Source: Acidobacteriaceae bacterium | GTDB taxonomy: Bacteria > Acidobacteriota > Terriglobia > Terriglobales > Acidobacteriaceae | Assembly (NCBI GenBank): GCA_030037545.1 | Contig: JASHRF010000108.1 | Location: 1-64,000, forward strand | DNA length: 64,000 bases | Reading direction: 5' to 3' | Part shown: one piece after another, positions 804 through 60,852 of the stretch | Numbering within the stretch: the first letter of the stretch is position 1 | Layout of the letters: each line of letters starts with the position of its first letter | The notes under the pieces: generated by a model | Databases searched by the model: none | The model's input: only the letters and a program-made list of their open reading frames with translations | Told to the model about the DNA's origin: nothing | Position numbers and translations under genes: made by a program

Positions 804-2453
804 ATGAGTTCGGCTTCCAAGATCACGGCATCTGCTGTTGCCGTAGCTTTTCTTCTCACGCTTGCGGCCCGCGCGCAGGATGAAAAACCGGGGCAGAGAT
901 CAGCGTCTCAAACCAAATCCGAGTCCGTGCCGGCCGATCCGCCCGATTCCACCACTCAAGGCACGGTTGACGTGGGCGGGCAGCACATTACCTACACCGC
1001 TGTAGCCGGCATCATCACCGTGGGTGCGACCGACGCCGACGACGCGCAGCTCGGTCCGGACGGCAAGCCGATTCCCGGCTCCCAGCTCGCGCTCTCCGCG
1101 CCCAAAGATCCGGCCGACGCGCCGCCGCTGGCGCACATGTTCTACGTGGCATATTTCAAGACCGGCACCAACGCTGAAGACCGGCCGGTCACGTTCTTTT
1201 ATAACGGCGGTCCGGGCAGCTCCACCATGTGGCTGCACCTGGGCTCGCTGGGACCCAGGTACGTGGAGACTGGCGATACGCATCTGCCCGGCGCCCCTTA
1301 CAAGCTTGTGGACAATCCCTATTGTCTGCTCGACACCAGCGACCTGGTCTTCATCGACATGCCTGGTACCGGCTTTGGCCGCATGACCGGCAAAGATGCG
1401 GGCAAGGCTTTCTGGGGCCTGGGTCAGGACGCGGGAGCTTTTGCCCGCTTCATCGCCCGTTTCCTGACCACGTATAACCGCTGGAACTCGCCCAAATTCC
1501 TCTTCGGCGAGAGCTACGGAACCACGCGCTCCGCGGTGCTGGCCAACCTGCTCGAAAACCGCAAGAACATCGACCTGAACGGCGTAATGCTGCTGGGCGA
1601 AATCTTTAATTTCCCCATCGGCATCGGCGTGGGCGGCGGACGGCCGGGCATGGATCTGCCCTTCGAGCTGGCCTTGCCCACCTACGCGGCCACGGCGTGG
1701 TTTCACAAGAAGCTCACTCCGCAGCCGCCCGACCTGGCGGCGTTCCTCCAGCAGGTTGAAGACTTCGCCATGGGCGACTACATGCACGCGCTGGCTGAGG
1801 GAAATGCCATTACGGACACCGAGAAGCAATCGGTGGCGGAGAAGATCCACGCGTACACCGGCCTTCCGGTTGATTACGTGCTCAAGGCCAATCTGCGCGT
1901 GAATGGTGGCGAGTTCGAGAAGACCTTCGAAGACGACCAGGATATGACCACCGGTCGGTACGACACGCGCTTCCTGGGGCCTACCATCGATCCGCTGAGC
2001 GAATCGGCGGAATACGATCCGCAGAGCGCGGCTATCTCATCGGCGTACGTGTCGCTGATCAACCTCTACCTGCGCGACGACCTGAAGTACGGCGCAGGTG
2101 AGACCTACCTGCCCGACGCGCTCTTTGACGGCGTGCACTGGAATTGGACGAGGGAAGGGCGAGGCGGCTATGGCGCGGGCGGCGTCAATGTGAGCTCCGA
2201 CCTGGCCGACGCCATGAAAACCAACCCTCATTTGAAGGTGATGGTCAACGACGGCTACTACGATCTGGCCACGCCGTTTTTCGCTGCGCAATACGAAGAA
2301 CAGCATCTGCCCATTCCGCCGTCGCTAACCAAGAATATTGAATACAACTGGTACGAGTCAGGCCACATGGCGTATGTGCGCGACGAGTGCCGCAAGCAAC
2401 TCCACGACCGCGTGGCGGCGTTTATCCGGAGTGCTGACGGGGACGGTCAGTAG
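804..2453 (+). CDS. Secreted serine carboxypeptidase-like protease (peptidase S10)
   Basis: The protein has 549 residues with a Sec signal peptide (about residues 1-24, ending ARA|Q). Family S10 releases C-terminal amino acids through a Ser-Asp-His triad. The FFYNGGPGSS oxyanion block lies near residue 135, the nucleophile motif GESYG puts the catalytic Ser at S237, the NDGYYDLATP block near 482-491 supplies the Asp (probably D487), and ESGHMAY puts the His at H521. Length and motif order fit bacterial S10 enzymes, which act in the periplasm or outside the cell. GGAGG at 792-796 decides the ATG at 804. With the upstream dipeptidase it suggests a peptide-scavenging neighbourhood, though the 34-base gap leaves co-transcription open. 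Confidence 0.92.
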   Translation: MSSASKITASAVAVAFLLTLAARAQDEKPGQRSASQTKSESVPADPPDSTTQGTVDVGGQHITYTAVAGIITVGATDADDAQLGPDGKPIPGSQLALSAPKDPADAPPLAHMFYVAYFKTGTNAEDRPVTFFYNGGPGSSTMWLHLGSLGPRYVETGDTHLPGAPYKLVDNPYCLLDTSDLVFIDMPGTGFGRMTGKDAGKAFWGLGQDAGAFARFIARFLTTYNRWNSPKFLFGESYGTTRSAVLANLLENRKNIDLNGVMLLGEIFNFPIGIGVGGGRPGMDLPFELALPTYAATAWFHKKLTPQPPDLAAFLQQVEDFAMGDYMHALAEGNAITDTEKQSVAEKIHAYTGLPVDYVLKANLRVNGGEFEKTFEDDQDMTTGRYDTRFLGPTIDPLSESAEYDPQSAAISSAYVSLINLYLRDDLKYGAGETYLPDALFDGVHWNWTREGRGGYGAGGVNVSSDLADAMKTNPHLKVMVNDGYYDLATPFFAAQYEEQHLPIPPSLTKNIEYNWYESGHMAYVRDECRKQLHDRVAAFIRSADGDGQ

Positions 2454-2486
2454 CTGGTCAGCAGCGAGCAGGTTTTCAGCAGGCGT

Positions 2487-2753
2487 TTAAAGTACAGACT
2501 TCACCGGCTTCTTCTGCCGGACATCGACTTCGCCGTTGGCGTGCAGATCCGATTGGCGGTCCATCCACTCGTCGAGGCGCGAGCGCTTGAAGCGCCAGCG
2601 ATTGCCCAGCTTGAATGCGGGCACAAAGCCCTCGGAAGCGTATTTGTAGAGGGTGTCGGGCGAGATGCCAAGGTAGCCGGAGGCCTGTCGAATGTCCATC
2701 ACCTCGCGTACTTCAGGAACCAGCAGGTTGGAGCGAGCCGCAGCATTACGCAT
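2487..2753 (-). CDS. Helix-turn-helix (excisionase/MerR-like) DNA-binding protein
   Basis: This 88-residue protein carries one winged-helix excisionase-type domain at about residues 18-70. The core pattern is DIRQASGYLGISPDTLYKY followed by GNRWRFKRSRLDEWM, the HTH and wing of the family annotated as helix-turn-helix or excisionase. The start is ATG 2753 with GGAGG five bases upstream on the minus strand. A TATATA stretch about 60 bases upstream could be its -10 element. Such proteins are either transcription factors or recombination directionality factors. No integrase or att site is visible nearby, so a regulator role is more likely. The target is unknown. Confidence 0.8.
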   Translation of the reverse strand: MRNAAARSNLLVPEVREVMDIRQASGYLGISPDTLYKYASEGFVPAFKLGNRWRFKRSRLDEWMDRQSDLHANGEVDVRQKKPVKSVL

Positions 2754-53493: not shown

Positions 53494-53505
53494 TGTAGTG
53501 CGTCA
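53493..53505 (+). repeat. IS630 left terminal inverted repeat
   Basis: GTGTAGTGCGTCA directly follows the TA target. It pairs with the right end with one mismatch at position 6. Confidence 0.85.
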
Positions 53506-54588
53506 CACAGATAGGCGATTATTTAACGCCATCTGAGCGCGGGTGACTTTTTCCAGGATATCGTTGGCCTTGGCGGTCCAGATGAAGGGCTTGGGGTTGG
53601 CGTTGTGTTGGTCGACGTAATCGCCGATGGCCGTGATCAACTGCTCCAGGTCGCGGAAGACGCCGCGCCGGATTCTGTTGTCGGTCAGATCGCGGAAAAA
53701 CCGTTCGATCATGTTCAGCCACGACGCCGAAGTCGGCGTGAAGTGCACATGGAAGCGTTTGCGCTTTGCGATCCAGCGCTGTACGCGCGGATGTTTGTGT
53801 GTGGCGTAGTTGTCGCAGACGATATGAATCTGCTTGCCGGCGTCGACGCTTTTATCGATCAGGCGCAGAAACTTCAGCCACTCCTGATGGCGATGGCGCT
53901 GCTGGCAGAGGCCGTAGACTTCGCCGGTCGCGGTATTGAGCGCGGCAAACAACGTCGTGGTTCCGTTGCGTTTGTAGTCGTGCGTCATGGTCTGCCCGCG
54001 GCCTTTCTTCATCGGCAGTCCGGGCTGCGTGCGGTCCAGCGCCTGAATCTGGCTCTTCTCATCGACCGACAACACCAGCGCATGTTGGGGCGGATTCAAG
54101 TAAAGCCCGACGATGTCCTCCAGCTTCTCGGCAAAATGCGGATCGTTGCTGATTTTGAAGCTCTCCACGCGGTGCGGCTTGAGCCCGTGCGCGCGCCAGA
54201 TGCGCCGCACGCTGGCCTCCGAAATACCCGCTTCGCGCGCCATGCTGCGCGTCGACCAGTGTGTGGCGTGGAGCGGAGTGGTCTGCGTAGTCTTGCGGAT
54301 CACTTGCTCGACCGTGGAGGCGGGTATCGAGGGTGTGCGCCCGGGCCGGGGCGTATCGTTCAGCAGGCCCTGGACGCCGAGCGCGAGAAACCGCTCGCGC
54401 CACAAAGCCACCATGCGCACGCTGACCTTCAGTTCGGCGGCAATCTGGAGATTCTGCAGACCTTCGGCAGCCAGCAGAACAATCCGGCTGCGCAGAGCCA
54501 CACGCACCGCAACCGAACGCCCGCAGGCCAGCCGCTGCAGTTGCTTCCGGGTCATTTCGTCGAGCACGACAGGACGGGCAACACGCAT
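53503..54588 (-). CDS. IS630 family transposase
   Basis: This is a 361-residue DDE transposase in a single frame. An N-terminal helix-turn-helix region (~25-120) carries VSVRMVALWRERFLALG and the Pro-rich linker RPGRTPSIP. The catalytic core has LSVDEKSQ (D176), IHIVCDNYATHKH (D259) and SWLNMIERFFRD (E295), spaced as DD(35)E. The ATG at 54588 has GAGGAG eight bases upstream, and that site is embedded in a hairpin. It occupies nearly the whole element and stops 10 bases from the left end. All catalytic residues are present. Confidence 0.95.
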   Translation of the reverse strand: MRVARPVVLDEMTRKQLQRLACGRSVAVRVALRSRIVLLAAEGLQNLQIAAELKVSVRMVALWRERFLALGVQGLLNDTPRPGRTPSIPASTVEQVIRKTTQTTPLHATHWSTRSMAREAGISEASVRRIWRAHGLKPHRVESFKISNDPHFAEKLEDIVGLYLNPPQHALVLSVDEKSQIQALDRTQPGLPMKKGRGQTMTHDYKRNGTTTLFAALNTATGEVYGLCQQRHRHQEWLKFLRLIDKSVDAGKQIHIVCDNYATHKHPRVQRWIAKRKRFHVHFTPTSASWLNMIERFFRDLTDNRIRRGVFRDLEQLITAIGDYVDQHNANPKPFIWTAKANDILEKVTRAQMALNNRLSV

Positions 54589-54878: not shown

Positions 54879-57800
54879 TTACCCCACCGCCTGCACCGAC
54901 CCCTTGCCCACCAATTCTTCCACGCGCTCCATCCAGCCACGATCCGCCGCCACGTTCATTCCTTCCGGCTCCAGGATCACAGCATACTCATCCTTTTTTT
55001 CGAGCTGCAGCATTACCTTCGCCGGTCCCGGCGCCGCTTCCGCCGCGCTCTTCAACCCGGCGAGCATCTCTTCCGTCGCACGGTCGAGATTGATGCGGAT
55101 GCGCACTCCCGCCGGCAGCTTCACCTGCACGTCCTCGAGCGCCTGAATCGCGCTCACCGCGATCTTGGGCGCGGATTCTTCATCTCCCGAAAGCACGCCT
55201 CGAATGAGAACCGGCGCCTCCATCCTCAATTGCCCGGCCAATCGCTCGTAGTCCCGCGGAAAAGCAATCAGGTCGATCTTGCCGGTAGCATCTTCAAGCG
55301 CAGCCTGCGCGTAGAGTTTCTGGTCGCGCTTGGTCTTCTGCACGCGCAGCCCGTGCATGATTCCCGCCACCTGGATCTCCTCGGCTGCATCGCCCGTGGC
55401 CCCCCAGCGCCGCTCTGGCGGCTTGCGGTCCAGCGCTTCGGCTACCGTGATCACGCCCGGCAAACTGCGCAGCTTCTTCGCATATTTGTCGAGCGGGTGC
55501 CCGGACACAAAAAATCCCAGCACCTCTTTCTCGTTGGCCAGCCGCTCGCTCTCTTCCCAATCCGCCGCGCGCGACAGATCGTCCGCATGGCGAACCGGCG
55601 CGGGCGCTTCGTCAAACAGTCCGAACAAACCGCTCTGCCCCTGCGCCGCATCCTTCTGCGCCTTCTGCGCGCGCTCCATAGCCTTGTCGACCGCGGCAAA
55701 CAACTGCCCGCGCTTGCCCAATGAGTCCAGCGCGCCAGCCTTGATCAGCGACTCGATCACGCGCTTGTTCATCACCCGCAGATCGACCTTCTCGCAGAAC
55801 TCCCAAAAGCTCTGAAATCGCCCGCCCGCCTCCGCGCGGGCTTTCAGAATGGACTCAATCGCATTGGCGCCAACGTTCTTCACGGCCGCCAGCCCAAACC
55901 TGATTCGCTCGCCGTGGGGGGTGAACTGCGCCCCCGAAACCTGCACGTCCGGAGGTTCCACCGCCATGCCCATCTCCCGGCATTCGCCAATGTATTTCAC
56001 CACGCTGTCCGGCTTCGATGTTTCCGACGTCAGCAGCGCGGCCATGAATTCCACTGGGTAATGCGTCTTCAAATACGCCGTCTGGTAGGCCACCAGCGCA
56101 TACGCCGCCGAGTGCGACTTGTTGAACCCGTAGCCTGAGAACTTCGCCATCTGCTCGAAGATTTCACCCACCGCCCCTTTGGGATGTCCCAGCGCCGCCG
56201 CGCCGTTCATAAAGCGGTCGCGCTGCTTCGCCATGGCCTCGGGGTCCTTCTTGCCCATGGCCCGGCGCAACAGATCGGCCTCGCCCAGCGAGTAGCCGGA
56301 GAGCACGTTGGCGATGCGCATCACCTGCTCCTGGTACACGATCACGCCCAGCGAATCCTTGAGGATTCCCTCCAGCTCCGGCAACAGAAATTCAACTTTC
56401 CGCCGGCCCCACTTGCGCTCGATGAAGTCGTCGATCATGTCCATGGGCCCGGGCCGGTAGAGCGCATTTAACGCCGTCAGCTCCTCAACTGTGTCCGGCT
56501 TGTAGCGGCGCAGAATATCGCGCATGCCGCTCGATTCAAATTGAAAGACTCCCGAGGTAAGTGCGGTGTGAAAAACTTTTTTGAAGGTCTCCGGATCGTC
56601 CAGCGGAAGCATTTCAATGTCCAGCTTCTCGCCGCGCGTCTGCTCGATGAGCTTCACGCAATCGTCAATCACGGTCAGCGTGGCCAGGCCCAGAAAGTCC
56701 ATCTTCAGCAGGCCCATCTTTTCCACGGCCTTCATGTCGTAGGCGGTGACGATTTCGTCGTTCTTGGTCTTGGCCACCGGAACCAGCTCGGTGAGCGGGC
56801 GCGGCGCAATCACCACCGCAGACGCATGAACTCCCGAGCCGCGCACCAGGCCCTCCAGCTTCTTCGCCGTGTCGATCAGCTCACGCACCTGCTTGTCCCC
56901 GTCATACGCCTTACGCAGATCCGCCGATTCTTCCAGCGCCCGCTCCAGCGTCATGCCGATGGTCGGTGGAACCAGCTTGGCAATCCGGTCCACGTCGCCA
57001 TACGGCATATCGAGCGCGCGCCCGCAATCCTTGATCGAAGCTTTGGCCGCCATGGTATTGAAGGTGATAATCTGCGCCACCTGATCGCGCCCATACTTGC
57101 GTGTCACGTAGTCGATCACCTCGCCGCGCCGGTTCATGCAGAAATCCACGTCGATATCCGGCATCGACACGCGCTCCGGATTCAAAAAGCGCTCGAAGAG
57201 CAGCACATTCTGCAGCGGGTCGATGTTCGTGATTTCCATGGCATAGGCCACAAGCGAGCCGGTAGCCGATCCGCGCCCGGGCCCCACCGGGATGCCGTGA
57301 TCGCGCGCGTACTTGATGAAATCCCACACGATCAGAAAATACCCGGAGTACTTCATCTGCTTGATGATGCCGATCTCGAAATCCAGCCGCGACTGATACT
57401 CGTCGAGCGGAGCTCGAAGAACCCCGCGCAATTCCAGTTGCCGCACCGCCGTCTTCAGCCGCTTTTTGTAGCCCTCCCGGCATACCTCCTCGAAGTAGCT
57501 GTCGATGGTATGACCCGGCGGAACGGCGAATTCCGGAAATGGATTATCTACCTTGCTCAGCTTCAGGTTGCAGCGCTCGGCAATCTCCTGGGTTCGCGTA
57601 ACCACGGCCGGCGAGTCCGGAAACAGCGCCGCCATTTCGCCCCCGCTCTTCACAAAAAACTGATCGCTGTCGAAACGGAACCGGTCCGCATCGTGAATCT
57701 TGGCCCCCGTCTGCACGCACAGCATCACATCGTGCGCGTGCGAATCCTCGCCGCACAGGTAGTGCGAATCGTTGGTCGCCACCAGCGGAATGCCCAGCTC

Positions 57801-58382
57801 GCGTTCCAGCCGCAATAGGTCGGCACGAATCCTGCGCTCCGGCTCCAGCCCCTGGTCCTGGATTTCGAGGTAGAAATTTCCTTTGCCGAAGATGTCCTGG
57901 TACTGCTGCGCCACCGCCGCGCCGCGCTCGTACTGGCCCTTTTCGAGCGCTTCGCACAGTTCCCCGCTCAAGCAGCCCGAAAGCCCGATCAGCCCTTTCG
58001 AGTTTTCGGCTAGAAATTTCTTACTCACTCGCGGGCGCCGGTAGAACCCGTGCAGCGAAGCCTCAGAAGTCAGCCGGATCAGGTTCCGGTATCCCTCCTC
58101 GTTCTCGGCCAGCACCAGCAGGTGGTTGTACTGATCGTTGGGTGTTTCGGCGCGATGGTCCTCGGCCTTGCACACGTACAGCTCGCAGCCCAGAATCGGC
58201 TTGATGCCTTTGGCCTTGGCCGCATCGAAAAAGTGCACCGCACCATAAATGTTCCCGTGGTCCGTCATGGCCACAGACTTCTGGCCTACCTTGGCCACGC
58301 GATCTACGAGCTTGTAAACGTCGCAAGCGCCGTCGAGCAGCGAGTATTCCGTGTGCAGGTGGAGGTGAGTGAATTCGGGCAT
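54879..58382 (-). CDS. dnaE: DNA polymerase III alpha subunit
   Basis: This ~1167-residue protein is the replicative polymerase catalytic subunit. It has an N-terminal PHP domain (HLHLHTEYSLLDG at residues 5-17; intact His cluster), palm motifs GPGRGSATGSLVAYAM and MPDIDVDF (catalytic Asps near 405-410), RPGPMDMIDDFIERKWG, the fingers and beta-clamp region, a helix-hairpin-helix and an OB-fold domain from ~1000. Length fits DnaE1 type. I choose ATG 58382, giving MPEFTHLHLH as in the family; ATG 58391 and TTG 58394 are alternatives. No strong ribosome binding site precedes any of them. Confidence 0.95.
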   Translation of the reverse strand: MPEFTHLHLHTEYSLLDGACDVYKLVDRVAKVGQKSVAMTDHGNIYGAVHFFDAAKAKGIKPILGCELYVCKAEDHRAETPNDQYNHLLVLAENEEGYRNLIRLTSEASLHGFYRRPRVSKKFLAENSKGLIGLSGCLSGELCEALEKGQYERGAAVAQQYQDIFGKGNFYLEIQDQGLEPERRIRADLLRLERELGIPLVATNDSHYLCGEDSHAHDVMLCVQTGAKIHDADRFRFDSDQFFVKSGGEMAALFPDSPAVVTRTQEIAERCNLKLSKVDNPFPEFAVPPGHTIDSYFEEVCREGYKKRLKTAVRQLELRGVLRAPLDEYQSRLDFEIGIIKQMKYSGYFLIVWDFIKYARDHGIPVGPGRGSATGSLVAYAMEITNIDPLQNVLLFERFLNPERVSMPDIDVDFCMNRRGEVIDYVTRKYGRDQVAQIITFNTMAAKASIKDCGRALDMPYGDVDRIAKLVPPTIGMTLERALEESADLRKAYDGDKQVRELIDTAKKLEGLVRGSGVHASAVVIAPRPLTELVPVAKTKNDEIVTAYDMKAVEKMGLLKMDFLGLATLTVIDDCVKLIEQTRGEKLDIEMLPLDDPETFKKVFHTALTSGVFQFESSGMRDILRRYKPDTVEELTALNALYRPGPMDMIDDFIERKWGRRKVEFLLPELEGILKDSLGVIVYQEQVMRIANVLSGYSLGEADLLRRAMGKKDPEAMAKQRDRFMNGAAALGHPKGAVGEIFEQMAKFSGYGFNKSHSAAYALVAYQTAYLKTHYPVEFMAALLTSETSKPDSVVKYIGECREMGMAVEPPDVQVSGAQFTPHGERIRFGLAAVKNVGANAIESILKARAEAGGRFQSFWEFCEKVDLRVMNKRVIESLIKAGALDSLGKRGQLFAAVDKAMERAQKAQKDAAQGQSGLFGLFDEAPAPVRHADDLSRAADWEESERLANEKEVLGFFVSGHPLDKYAKKLRSLPGVITVAEALDRKPPERRWGATGDAAEEIQVAGIMHGLRVQKTKRDQKLYAQAALEDATGKIDLIAFPRDYERLAGQLRMEAPVLIRGVLSGDEESAPKIAVSAIQALEDVQVKLPAGVRIRINLDRATEEMLAGLKSAAEAAPGPAKVMLQLEKKDEYAVILEPEGMNVAADRGWMERVEELVGKGSVQAVG

Positions 58383-58394
58383 GGCTACCATCAA

Positions 58395-58879: not shown

Positions 58880-60109
58880 CTACTTTCGCGCCGTCGCCTG
58901 CGCCAGCGCGCGAATGTTCTCCTCGTTGCGCTGCGGCTGGCCGCGCGGCGGTACATACAGCGTCGAAATCGAGATGAACTCGGCCCTGGGCAGATCGCAT
59001 AGCGCTACCCGCTCCACCAGCGAACGGCTGGTGGGATACTCCGGGGCGTGGTAGAGAAACACCTCGTGCTTCGGGCCGTAGAACTTCTCGAGATAGGCTG
59101 CCAGCACCTCCAGCCGCGGGCGCACGCCGGTGTGCGGAGGATTCCACTCGTTCTCGCCGAGTACGCTCACCTGCCACAGCAGCAGGCCCGCGCAGGGATC
59201 GAAATTGTAGCTGTAATAGAGAAAGCGCGTGGCCTCGAAGCTCTGCAGGCCGGCGCGGCCAATGTCGATGCCCAGATCGGCAAACAGGCTGTCCTCGGTT
59301 GAAATCGCGGGTAGCATGCGCGCGCGCTTGCCCGTGGCCCGGGCGCGGCGAATCGACTCCCACGCCGGGTAGGTGAGCACGCCGGGATGCCCATAGAACG
59401 CGACGCACAAATCGCCGTGCGTTTCCAACTCGCCCAGGATGCGGGCAATGATGGTTTCGTAGATCTCGATGCGCGGTTTGCCAATTTTGTAGAGGTGCCC
59501 CAGCGGCTGCGCCGCCGAATTCAGCTTGCGGATGCACGCTTCCGAAACCGGATCGGACACCAGGTACAGCACCCGCGCCGATTTCTCGATAGCCAGCCGC
59601 GTCTCCGCCGTCATGTGCAGGCCGGCGCGCATGCCCATACCGACAACAGTGAGTCCCTTACCGGACCACACACCGCTGGGATCTTCGTCCGAGATCCATC
59701 CGGCGTTCTTCCCCGCCAGCACGGCATCCTGTGCCAGGTCCAGGTCGATATCGAGCGGCTCAACCTGGTGCGTTTCCGCCTCGTGGGCAGCGATCTCCTC
59801 CGGCTCCTCCGGCGGGTCCGGCTGCGGAAACTCTTCCAACATCGCGGGCGACGGAAACGCCACGGCCGCGCCCGACTCTTCAGGCTCTTCCGGCGGGTCG
59901 GGCTGCGGAAACTCTTCCAGCATTACCGCCGGGGGACACGCCGCAGCCGCAACCGCCATGCGCAGCGCAATGGGGTCGCCGGACAACAGCAGTATCTGGT
60001 CTTGTTCGCGAAGGCCGCGCGTCCGCAAAACCTCGCCGGGCGCATTCCGGAATGCAGACATAAGTTCGGTGTCGGTGGCCAGATCGGCCAAGAAATGTAG
60101 CAGCTTCAT
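58880..60109 (-). CDS. Probable fused borosin: N-terminal borosin-binding-like domain, core/repeat linker, alpha-N-methyltransferase
   Basis: The protein has 409 residues. Residues 1-55 (FLADLATDTELMSAF, LRTRGLREQDQILLLSGD) resemble the helical binding domain of borosin precursors (SonA) and of the OphMA tail. Residues 60-78 and 88-105 are near-identical acidic repeats built on AMLEEFPQPDPPEEPEE. Residues 150-390 are a tetrapyrrole-methylase fold: GLTVVGMGM, VAFYGHPGV (Y239), RMLPAISTEDSLFADLGID and STLYVPP. R213 and Y217 in GKPRIEIY correspond to OphMA Arg72 and Tyr76, and Y239 to Tyr98. OphMA methylates backbone amides of its own C-terminal core. Here the precursor part precedes the enzyme. 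GGAGG seven bases before ATG 60109 and a near-consensus promoter support expression. The core location is inferred. Confidence 0.8.
   Translation of the reverse strand: MKLLHFLADLATDTELMSAFRNAPGEVLRTRGLREQDQILLLSGDPIALRMAVAAAACPPAVMLEEFPQPDPPEEPEESGAAVAFPSPAMLEEFPQPDPPEEPEEIAAHEAETHQVEPLDIDLDLAQDAVLAGKNAGWISDEDPSGVWSGKGLTVVGMGMRAGLHMTAETRLAIEKSARVLYLVSDPVSEACIRKLNSAAQPLGHLYKIGKPRIEIYETIIARILGELETHGDLCVAFYGHPGVLTYPAWESIRRARATGKRARMLPAISTEDSLFADLGIDIGRAGLQSFEATRFLYYSYNFDPCAGLLLWQVSVLGENEWNPPHTGVRPRLEVLAAYLEKFYGPKHEVFLYHAPEYPTSRSLVERVALCDLPRAEFISISTLYVPPRGQPQRNEENIRALAQATARK
59795..59932 (-). repeat. Tandem repeat in the borosin-like gene
   Basis: Two units at 59876-59932 and 59795-59848 encode PAVMLEEFPQPDPPEEPEE and PAMLEEFPQPDPPEEPEE. 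The period is 81 bases (27 residues). DNA identity is high with a few synonymous changes. The unit boundary carries SGAAVAFPS, the only strongly hydrophobic stretch of the linker. Confidence 0.8.
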
Positions 60110-60132
60110 GGGGTTACCTCCGGGGTAGCTGG

Positions 60133-60392: not shown

Positions 60393-60542
60393 ATGATCCG
60401 CAAACTAAAATCCGGGCAGTTCCGCATTTATTCGCGCAAAAAAGATGCCAAAAGCGGCAAGCGCCGCAACCTGGGCACCTTTTCTACGCGCGGACAAGCG
60501 CAGCAGCGCGAGCGCGAAGTCCAGTATTTCAAACATCACTAG
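60393..60542 (+). CDS. Small basic conserved protein
   Basis: The protein has 49 residues: MIRKLKSGQFRIYSRKKD, then KSGKRRNLGTF and a helical Gln/Arg/Glu-rich tail. The pattern RKLKSGxxRxYSRK...GKRRNLGTF is one I recall in small hypothetical proteins of soil bacteria; no function is established. ATG 60393 is chosen because it gives exactly this family start; the upstream open frame is Cys/Arg-rich and not protein-like. It is the first of three plus-strand small basic genes. Confidence 0.65.
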   Translation: MIRKLKSGQFRIYSRKKDAKSGKRRNLGTFSTRGQAQQREREVQYFKHH

Positions 60543-60552
60543 CGCAGAGGAG

Positions 60553-60852
60553 GTGGAGATCGCTCATACAGCGAGAAAATGGTCGGGCAAAGTAAACACT
60601 GATTCCACGCACCCTCCCGAAGGGCTATTCAACAAAGATCCCGAGACCATCGCGCGCGCTTTGGCCTCGAAGAGGGTCTCGCCCAAGGGTCCTGGCTCAG
60701 GGATGCGCATGTTGACGTTTTACATCAACCGCGCCGGGCACAATCTGAGCGCCACACGCCGGGCAAAACTCGACAAAGCCAAAGAGCTGTTATCGGCCCG
60801 CGTCCGCCGCGCCCACGCGCGCGCAAAAAAGGCAGAAAAACGCGGCGAGTGA
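60553..60852 (+). CDS. DUF3175-like small basic protein
   Basis: This ~100-residue protein matches DUF3175: ARKWSGKVNTDS, FNKDPETIARAL, MRMLTFYINRAGHNLS and a C-terminal RAKLDKAKELL. The family is short, basic and of unknown function. GTG 60553 is the only start that keeps the conserved KWS block with a short leader, but GAGGAG abuts it, so the true start is uncertain. It begins 10 bases after the previous small gene. Confidence 0.65.
   Translation: MEIAHTARKWSGKVNTDSTHPPEGLFNKDPETIARALASKRVSPKGPGSGMRMLTFYINRAGHNLSATRRAKLDKAKELLSARVRRAHARAKKAEKRGE

Follow-up and report, generated by a model that had tools for sequence, protein, structure and literature searches.

On the minus strand of the window (the whole 64,000-nucleotide stretch of DNA analysed here), an uninterrupted open reading frame of 409 residues runs from an ATG start at 60109 to 58880, with a Shine-Dalgarno-like GGAGGT (60116..60121, minus strand) six bases 5' of the ATG. 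The ORF, sequence matches and a predicted model indicate that this soil-bacterium gene (58880..60109, minus strand) encodes a binding domain, a linker with a repeated candidate core and a methyltransferase, in that order; the initial annotation had proposed the same order within one polypeptide, and sequence matches, profile and AF2 model all bear it out. Downstream lies dnaE (54879-58394, minus strand), while a divergent DUF3175 gene (60445-60852, plus strand) is the upstream neighbour. An intact-looking transposase gene of the IS630 family is found at 53503-54588 (minus strand), ~4.3 kb from the borosin gene. No match was obtained to anti-phage families. A pseudogene was ruled out by a dN/dS of ~0.23 (methyltransferase domain against that of a paralogue), by the intact ORF and by the Shine-Dalgarno-like site.

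The C-terminal half of the protein is, by sequence and predicted fold, a borosin alpha-N-methyltransferase (residues 151-409; 58883..59659, minus strand). In a phmmer search against all PDB sequences, SonM was the top match (E 3e-41), followed by OphMA and dbOphMA (E ~1e-34), over residues 152-403. The match thus ends at residue ~403 of 409, leaving no place for the fungal type I-III layout, in which the methyltransferase comes first and the core is C-terminal. An AF2 model of the whole protein, built as a single chain from a 55-sequence alignment, gave pLDDT >90 in the methyltransferase part, and its fold matches, at Z 26.7-28.6, were OphMA, SonM and MroMA. Next, at Z 16-17 and thus about 10 Z units below these borosin enzymes, came the siroheme and uroporphyrinogen methylases. 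The tetrapyrrole-methylase fold announced by the initial annotation, with YGHPGV, RMLPAISTEDSLFADL and STLYVPP, was found in full, and residues 151-409, which correspond to the residues 150-390 that it had set against cobalamin and siroheme methylases, turned out to be far closer to borosin enzymes (Z 27-29 vs 16-17).

The residues mutated in SonM are Y58, R67, Y71 and Y93 (PMC8429565), and all four have counterparts here. Y207 (59489..59491, minus strand) corresponds to SonM Y58 and OphMA Y66 according to the alignment and the residues of the SonM paper. R213 (59471..59473, minus strand), equivalent to SonM R67 and OphMA R72, is conserved in at least 90% of the 55 sequences. Y217 (59459..59461, minus strand; SonM Y71, OphMA Y76) and Y239 (59393..59395, minus strand; SonM Y93, OphMA Y98) are invariant among them. 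The alignment of R213, Y217 and Y239 with OphMA R72, Y76 and Y98 had been made by eye in the initial annotation and is correct, although the fourth match, Y207, had been overlooked.

The N-terminal domain (residues 1-57; 59939..60109, minus strand) is, as modelled, a borosin-binding domain, that is, a five-helix bundle, with helices at residues 3-12, 14-22, 24-30, 35-43 and 46-57; profile, AF2 and fold matches agree on this. Searched alone against PDB sequences, residues 1-57 gave a weak but specific match to SonA (E 0.3), which became E 3.3e-9 with a six-sequence profile of the fused proteins; gallate dioxygenase, with a LigA-type domain, was a distant second in that profile search (E 0.02). 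Folded alone, the same residues were predicted as five helices with a pLDDT of 92.6, and each of the twelve best fold matches among solved structures was SonA (Z 6.3-8.7), with LigA next at Z 5.8. In SonA itself, residues 1-53 form five helices (PMC8429565). The resemblance of the N-terminal ~55 residues to a borosin-binding domain, as well as their expected modelling as a helix bundle, both put forward before these searches, are therefore well matched by the SonA profile and the five-helix model.

Residues ~63-121 are predicted to be disordered (pLDDT below about 55) and contain, as had been noticed earlier, a repeat, which proved to be a two-copy one with an 81-bp period and 81% matches. A 16-residue block, MLEEFPQPDPPEEPEE, forms candidate core copy 1 (residues 63-78; 59876..59923, minus strand) and candidate core copy 2 (residues 90-105; 59795..59842, minus strand), identified through the repeat and a comparison of codons. 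The amino acids are the same in both copies, with five synonymous codon differences and no amino-acid change, and for this reason the protein sequence of MLEEFPQPDPPEEPEE seems to be kept by purifying selection. Just outside the copies, 11 of the 14 changed codons alter the residue (Fisher p 0.005 vs the copies, in a test based on five substitutions). Moreover, the repeat looks old, since dS between the copies is ~1.0 (a tiny sample), at least as high as the value for the two paralogues (0.64-0.76). In the binding-domain alignment, the methylated L63 and I65 of SonA fall at residues ~62-64, where copy 1 begins. Proline cannot be N-methylated, and the fact that the MLEEFPQPDPPEEPEE repeats hold few of the hydrophobic residues usually modified counts against a core in the repeats. 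A second candidate core, or else a recognition element, is the acidic-alternating stretch EPLDIDLDLAQDAVL (residues 117-131; 59717..59761, minus strand), which adjoins the methyltransferase, is conserved in the paralogue as EPLDLELDLAQDAVL and falls just outside residues 50-110, the interval in which the initial annotation had expected the methylations. We infer that the linker serves as the methylated core, with the Pro-rich repeats as the leading candidate within it: it is rather probable that they are the part modified, and a good deal less so that residues 117-131 are.

The same genome holds one other such gene (contig C94, 7789-9210), whose product is 74% identical to that of the window gene in the methyltransferase and about 61% in the binding domain. 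Its linker contains a different Pro-rich unit of 36 residues, beginning with AHVPEFPDTHPTNSPPPKPRPKPKADAWT, in 1.9 copies with a 96% DNA match; with one synonymous and one amino-acid change in 28 codons, this duplication is too recent for a selection test. Both paralogues thus carry a tandem-duplicated unit, and the units are unrelated, that of the paralogue having been duplicated on its own. An S53-type gene ~1.7 kb upstream of the paralogue and an M3 peptidase gene ~6 kb upstream were given no weight as a dedicated protease, as this locus shares nothing with the other three of the group described below. A prolyl-oligopeptidase-like gene is present elsewhere in the genome (contig C26).

When 84,980 species genomes were scanned, the nearest relatives that share the fused order and have Pro-rich linkers came from a Methylocystis MAG (L015, 56%) and a Terriglobia MAG (L016, 53%). 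The genome of L016 is of the same class as that of the window, which presumably belongs to Terriglobia (Acidobacteriota). The window gene, its paralogue, L015 and L016 form one clade (SH-aLRT 98). A gene of a Rhizobium MAG (L017) has an in-frame stop and is without a binding domain. The same fused order, with acidic and nearly Pro-free linkers, is present in Pseudomonas laurentiana (L058) and in Segetibacter koreensis (L071), the latter being, to judge from its name, presumably the published SkoAM. No close relative emerged when the window protein was used by itself in an initial genome scan, nor from viral contigs or plasmid records, and among partly overlapping samples of 99 relatives, 396 genomes of the phylum and 399 of the class, the genome of L016 was the only further carrier of the clade. 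The neighbourhoods of the four Pro-rich fused genes have nothing in common and, unlike usual RiPP clusters, none of the four genes has an adjoining protease, transporter or other tailoring gene. The earlier remark that no protease gene is adjacent thus holds at the window locus.

A free quick tree sets the Pro-rich clade apart from L058 and L071, which needs two changes, but in an AU test a tree uniting them in a single clade was placed higher and was not rejected (p 0.75), and a fusion independent of the published type 0 proteins is accordingly unsupported. The layout probably arose by in-frame fusion of a split precursor-methyltransferase pair with the precursor upstream, and such a fusion would immediately yield a binding domain followed by core and methyltransferase. 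Of 89 methyltransferase genes surveyed, 43 are preceded on the same strand by a binding-domain ORF whose end lies no more than 150 bp upstream; this is a count of genes rather than of independent events, in a set picked by similarity to the window gene. Furthermore, Pro-rich tails follow the binding domain in split precursors from cyanobacteria (DPGPDPLPDPDPFP), Hyphomicrobiaceae (L023) and Corallococcus (L024).

Several other arrangements were observed. A bacterial protein from the genus of the window (L009; G040:C580, ORF 1231-2748, minus strand) resembles fungal OphMA (dbOphMA E 1e-69) much more closely than it does SonM and shows a DDDN-repeat N-terminus, a methyltransferase and a C-terminal binding domain with no core after it. 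Myxobacterial split precursors (L018:5009-5989 and L040:5009-5989) carry many VVYAAG/MVYGAG repeats after the binding domain, overlap the methyltransferase gene and are apparently multi-core. The genes for cyanobacterial borosin precursors with conserved DPGPDPLPDPDPFP cores (L039, L041-L043, L046, L047, L051, L052, L056, L081 and others) lie downstream of the methyltransferase gene, at a distance of about 1-3 kb. In three acidobacterial genes (L092:3176-4180, L094:4994-5998 and L097:400-1398), which sit beside further borosin methyltransferase genes, the binding domain is joined to the methyltransferase with almost no linker. The conjugative plasmid p155_2 of Bradyrhizobium sp. 155 (L012) bears a split borosin cluster that encodes two methyltransferases together with a dioxygenase of the TauD family and a prolyl oligopeptidase, and split borosin-type gene pairs occur in MAGs of Thermoplasmata archaea (L022, L025, L027, L029, L048, L062).

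Taken together, the window protein is predicted, with a probability of roughly 0.8, to be a type 0 borosin, that is, a RiPP precursor and a backbone alpha-N-methyltransferase in one molecule whose core is methylated. Its order is that of type 0: a single chain in which the binding domain and the linker, the presumed core, precede the methyltransferase. By analogy with SonM-SonA and OphMA, two protomers would pair, and the N-terminal five-helix domain would dock on a methyltransferase domain as SonA does. The disordered segment that follows the binding domain could then be pulled through the SAM-bound active site, where the non-proline residues of MLEEFPQPDPPEEPEE would be N-methylated stepwise, twice per chain. 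Release of the peptide, if it takes place, would fall to a housekeeping protease or to one encoded elsewhere.

Within the type 0 assignment, the substrate may be placed elsewhere, with the Pro-rich repeats serving as a stiff spacer and EPLDIDLDLAQDAVL as the methylated core. This possibility, which we regard as tentative, draws on the conservation of EPLDIDLDLAQDAVL between paralogues with unrelated repeats, on similar interdomain sequences in L071 (ADVDVDLAP), L058 (VDLDVED) and L015 (a DLDLTIT stretch), and on the alternating acidic cores of type III borosins, D, A, V and L being methylated in KchMA (PMC11395268). However, the conservation also fits a recognition element, EPLDIDLDLAQDAVL lies ~60 residues past the binding domain vs ~10 in SonA, a similar stretch is absent from L016, and it would not account for the complete lack of amino-acid changes between the repeats. 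A methyltransferase acting in trans on a separate precursor, with the fused linker inert, is very improbable: split systems are the common bacterial form, but the genome contains no binding domain beyond those of the window gene and its paralogue, and a search of its surroundings revealed no small ORF recognisable as a precursor.

It is also unlikely, though less so, that the linker is self-methylated and nothing is released, the product being the whole protein with a protease-resistant linker rich in tertiary amides. An internal core makes release dependent on two cuts, and the four unrelated neighbourhoods share neither a protease nor an exporter; on the other hand, many borosin systems have no known dedicated protease, the absence of the specific peptidase being given as the reason why few mature compounds have been identified (PMC11395268), and the genome does contain the prolyl-oligopeptidase-like gene on C26. 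Similarly doubtful is a fuller picture of a self-methylating multi-core borosin in which proline alternates with N-methylated residues, so that mostly tertiary amides form a peptoid-like rod, with a core cassette exchanged between paralogues, no release machinery and the modified protein itself maybe the product. An ordinary tetrapyrrole methylase of siroheme or cobalamin type with an accessory LigA-like domain hardly deserves credence; Pfam returns only TP_methylase, and the family closest to the N-terminus of the relatives is LigA, but borosin enzymes lead both in sequence (SonM and OphMA best) and in fold (Z 27-29 vs 16-17), all residues of the borosin-specific Y/R/Y/Y set are retained, and SonA ranks above LigA.

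As a predicted type 0 borosin, the window gene offers a small, single-gene system for testing backbone N-methylation, and its probable origin, in which a precursor gene was joined to the methyltransferase gene downstream of it, suggests how the domain order came about. The two paralogues, which combine shared machinery with duplicated cores of unrelated sequence, amount to a natural swap experiment on the permissiveness of a type 0 enzyme. Should the Pro-rich repeats be what is methylated, the products, combining proline with N-methyl residues, would form a chemically unusual class. The type 0 architecture has reportedly been validated biochemically by Lee and co-workers.

Fungal type I OphMA also unites methyltransferase, binding domain and core in one polypeptide, but in that order and with a C-terminal core, so that the order in the window protein differs. 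The split type IV pair SonM/SonA shares the enzyme fold, the active site and a five-helix binding domain followed by the core, and differs in being encoded by two genes, the core forming the C-terminal end of a precursor of 71 residues (PMC8429565); the separate precursor gene that characterises type IV is missing here, where a single ORF is found. In type XI XulAM the methyltransferase is likewise C-terminal, whereas the N-terminal domain is without known function (PMC11395268) and that of the window protein is a recognisable binding domain. The type 0 borosins of Lee et al. (2024, ACS Chem Biol 19:1116), as described in PMC11395268, are likewise single polypeptides with cores N-terminal and methyltransferases C-terminal. 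The inverted order pointed out in the initial annotation, which had only fungal and split forms for comparison, is therefore real and not new: it is an unusual but known architecture. No description was found of a duplicated Pro-rich core or of its swap between paralogues, although the dataset of Lee et al. (2024) may hold such cores. L071 has the same succession of binding domain, linker and methyltransferase as the window protein, with 37% identity in the methyltransferase; its linker and that of L058 are acidic, contain 1% Pro and show no such duplication, in contrast to the 17-22% Pro of the window clade.
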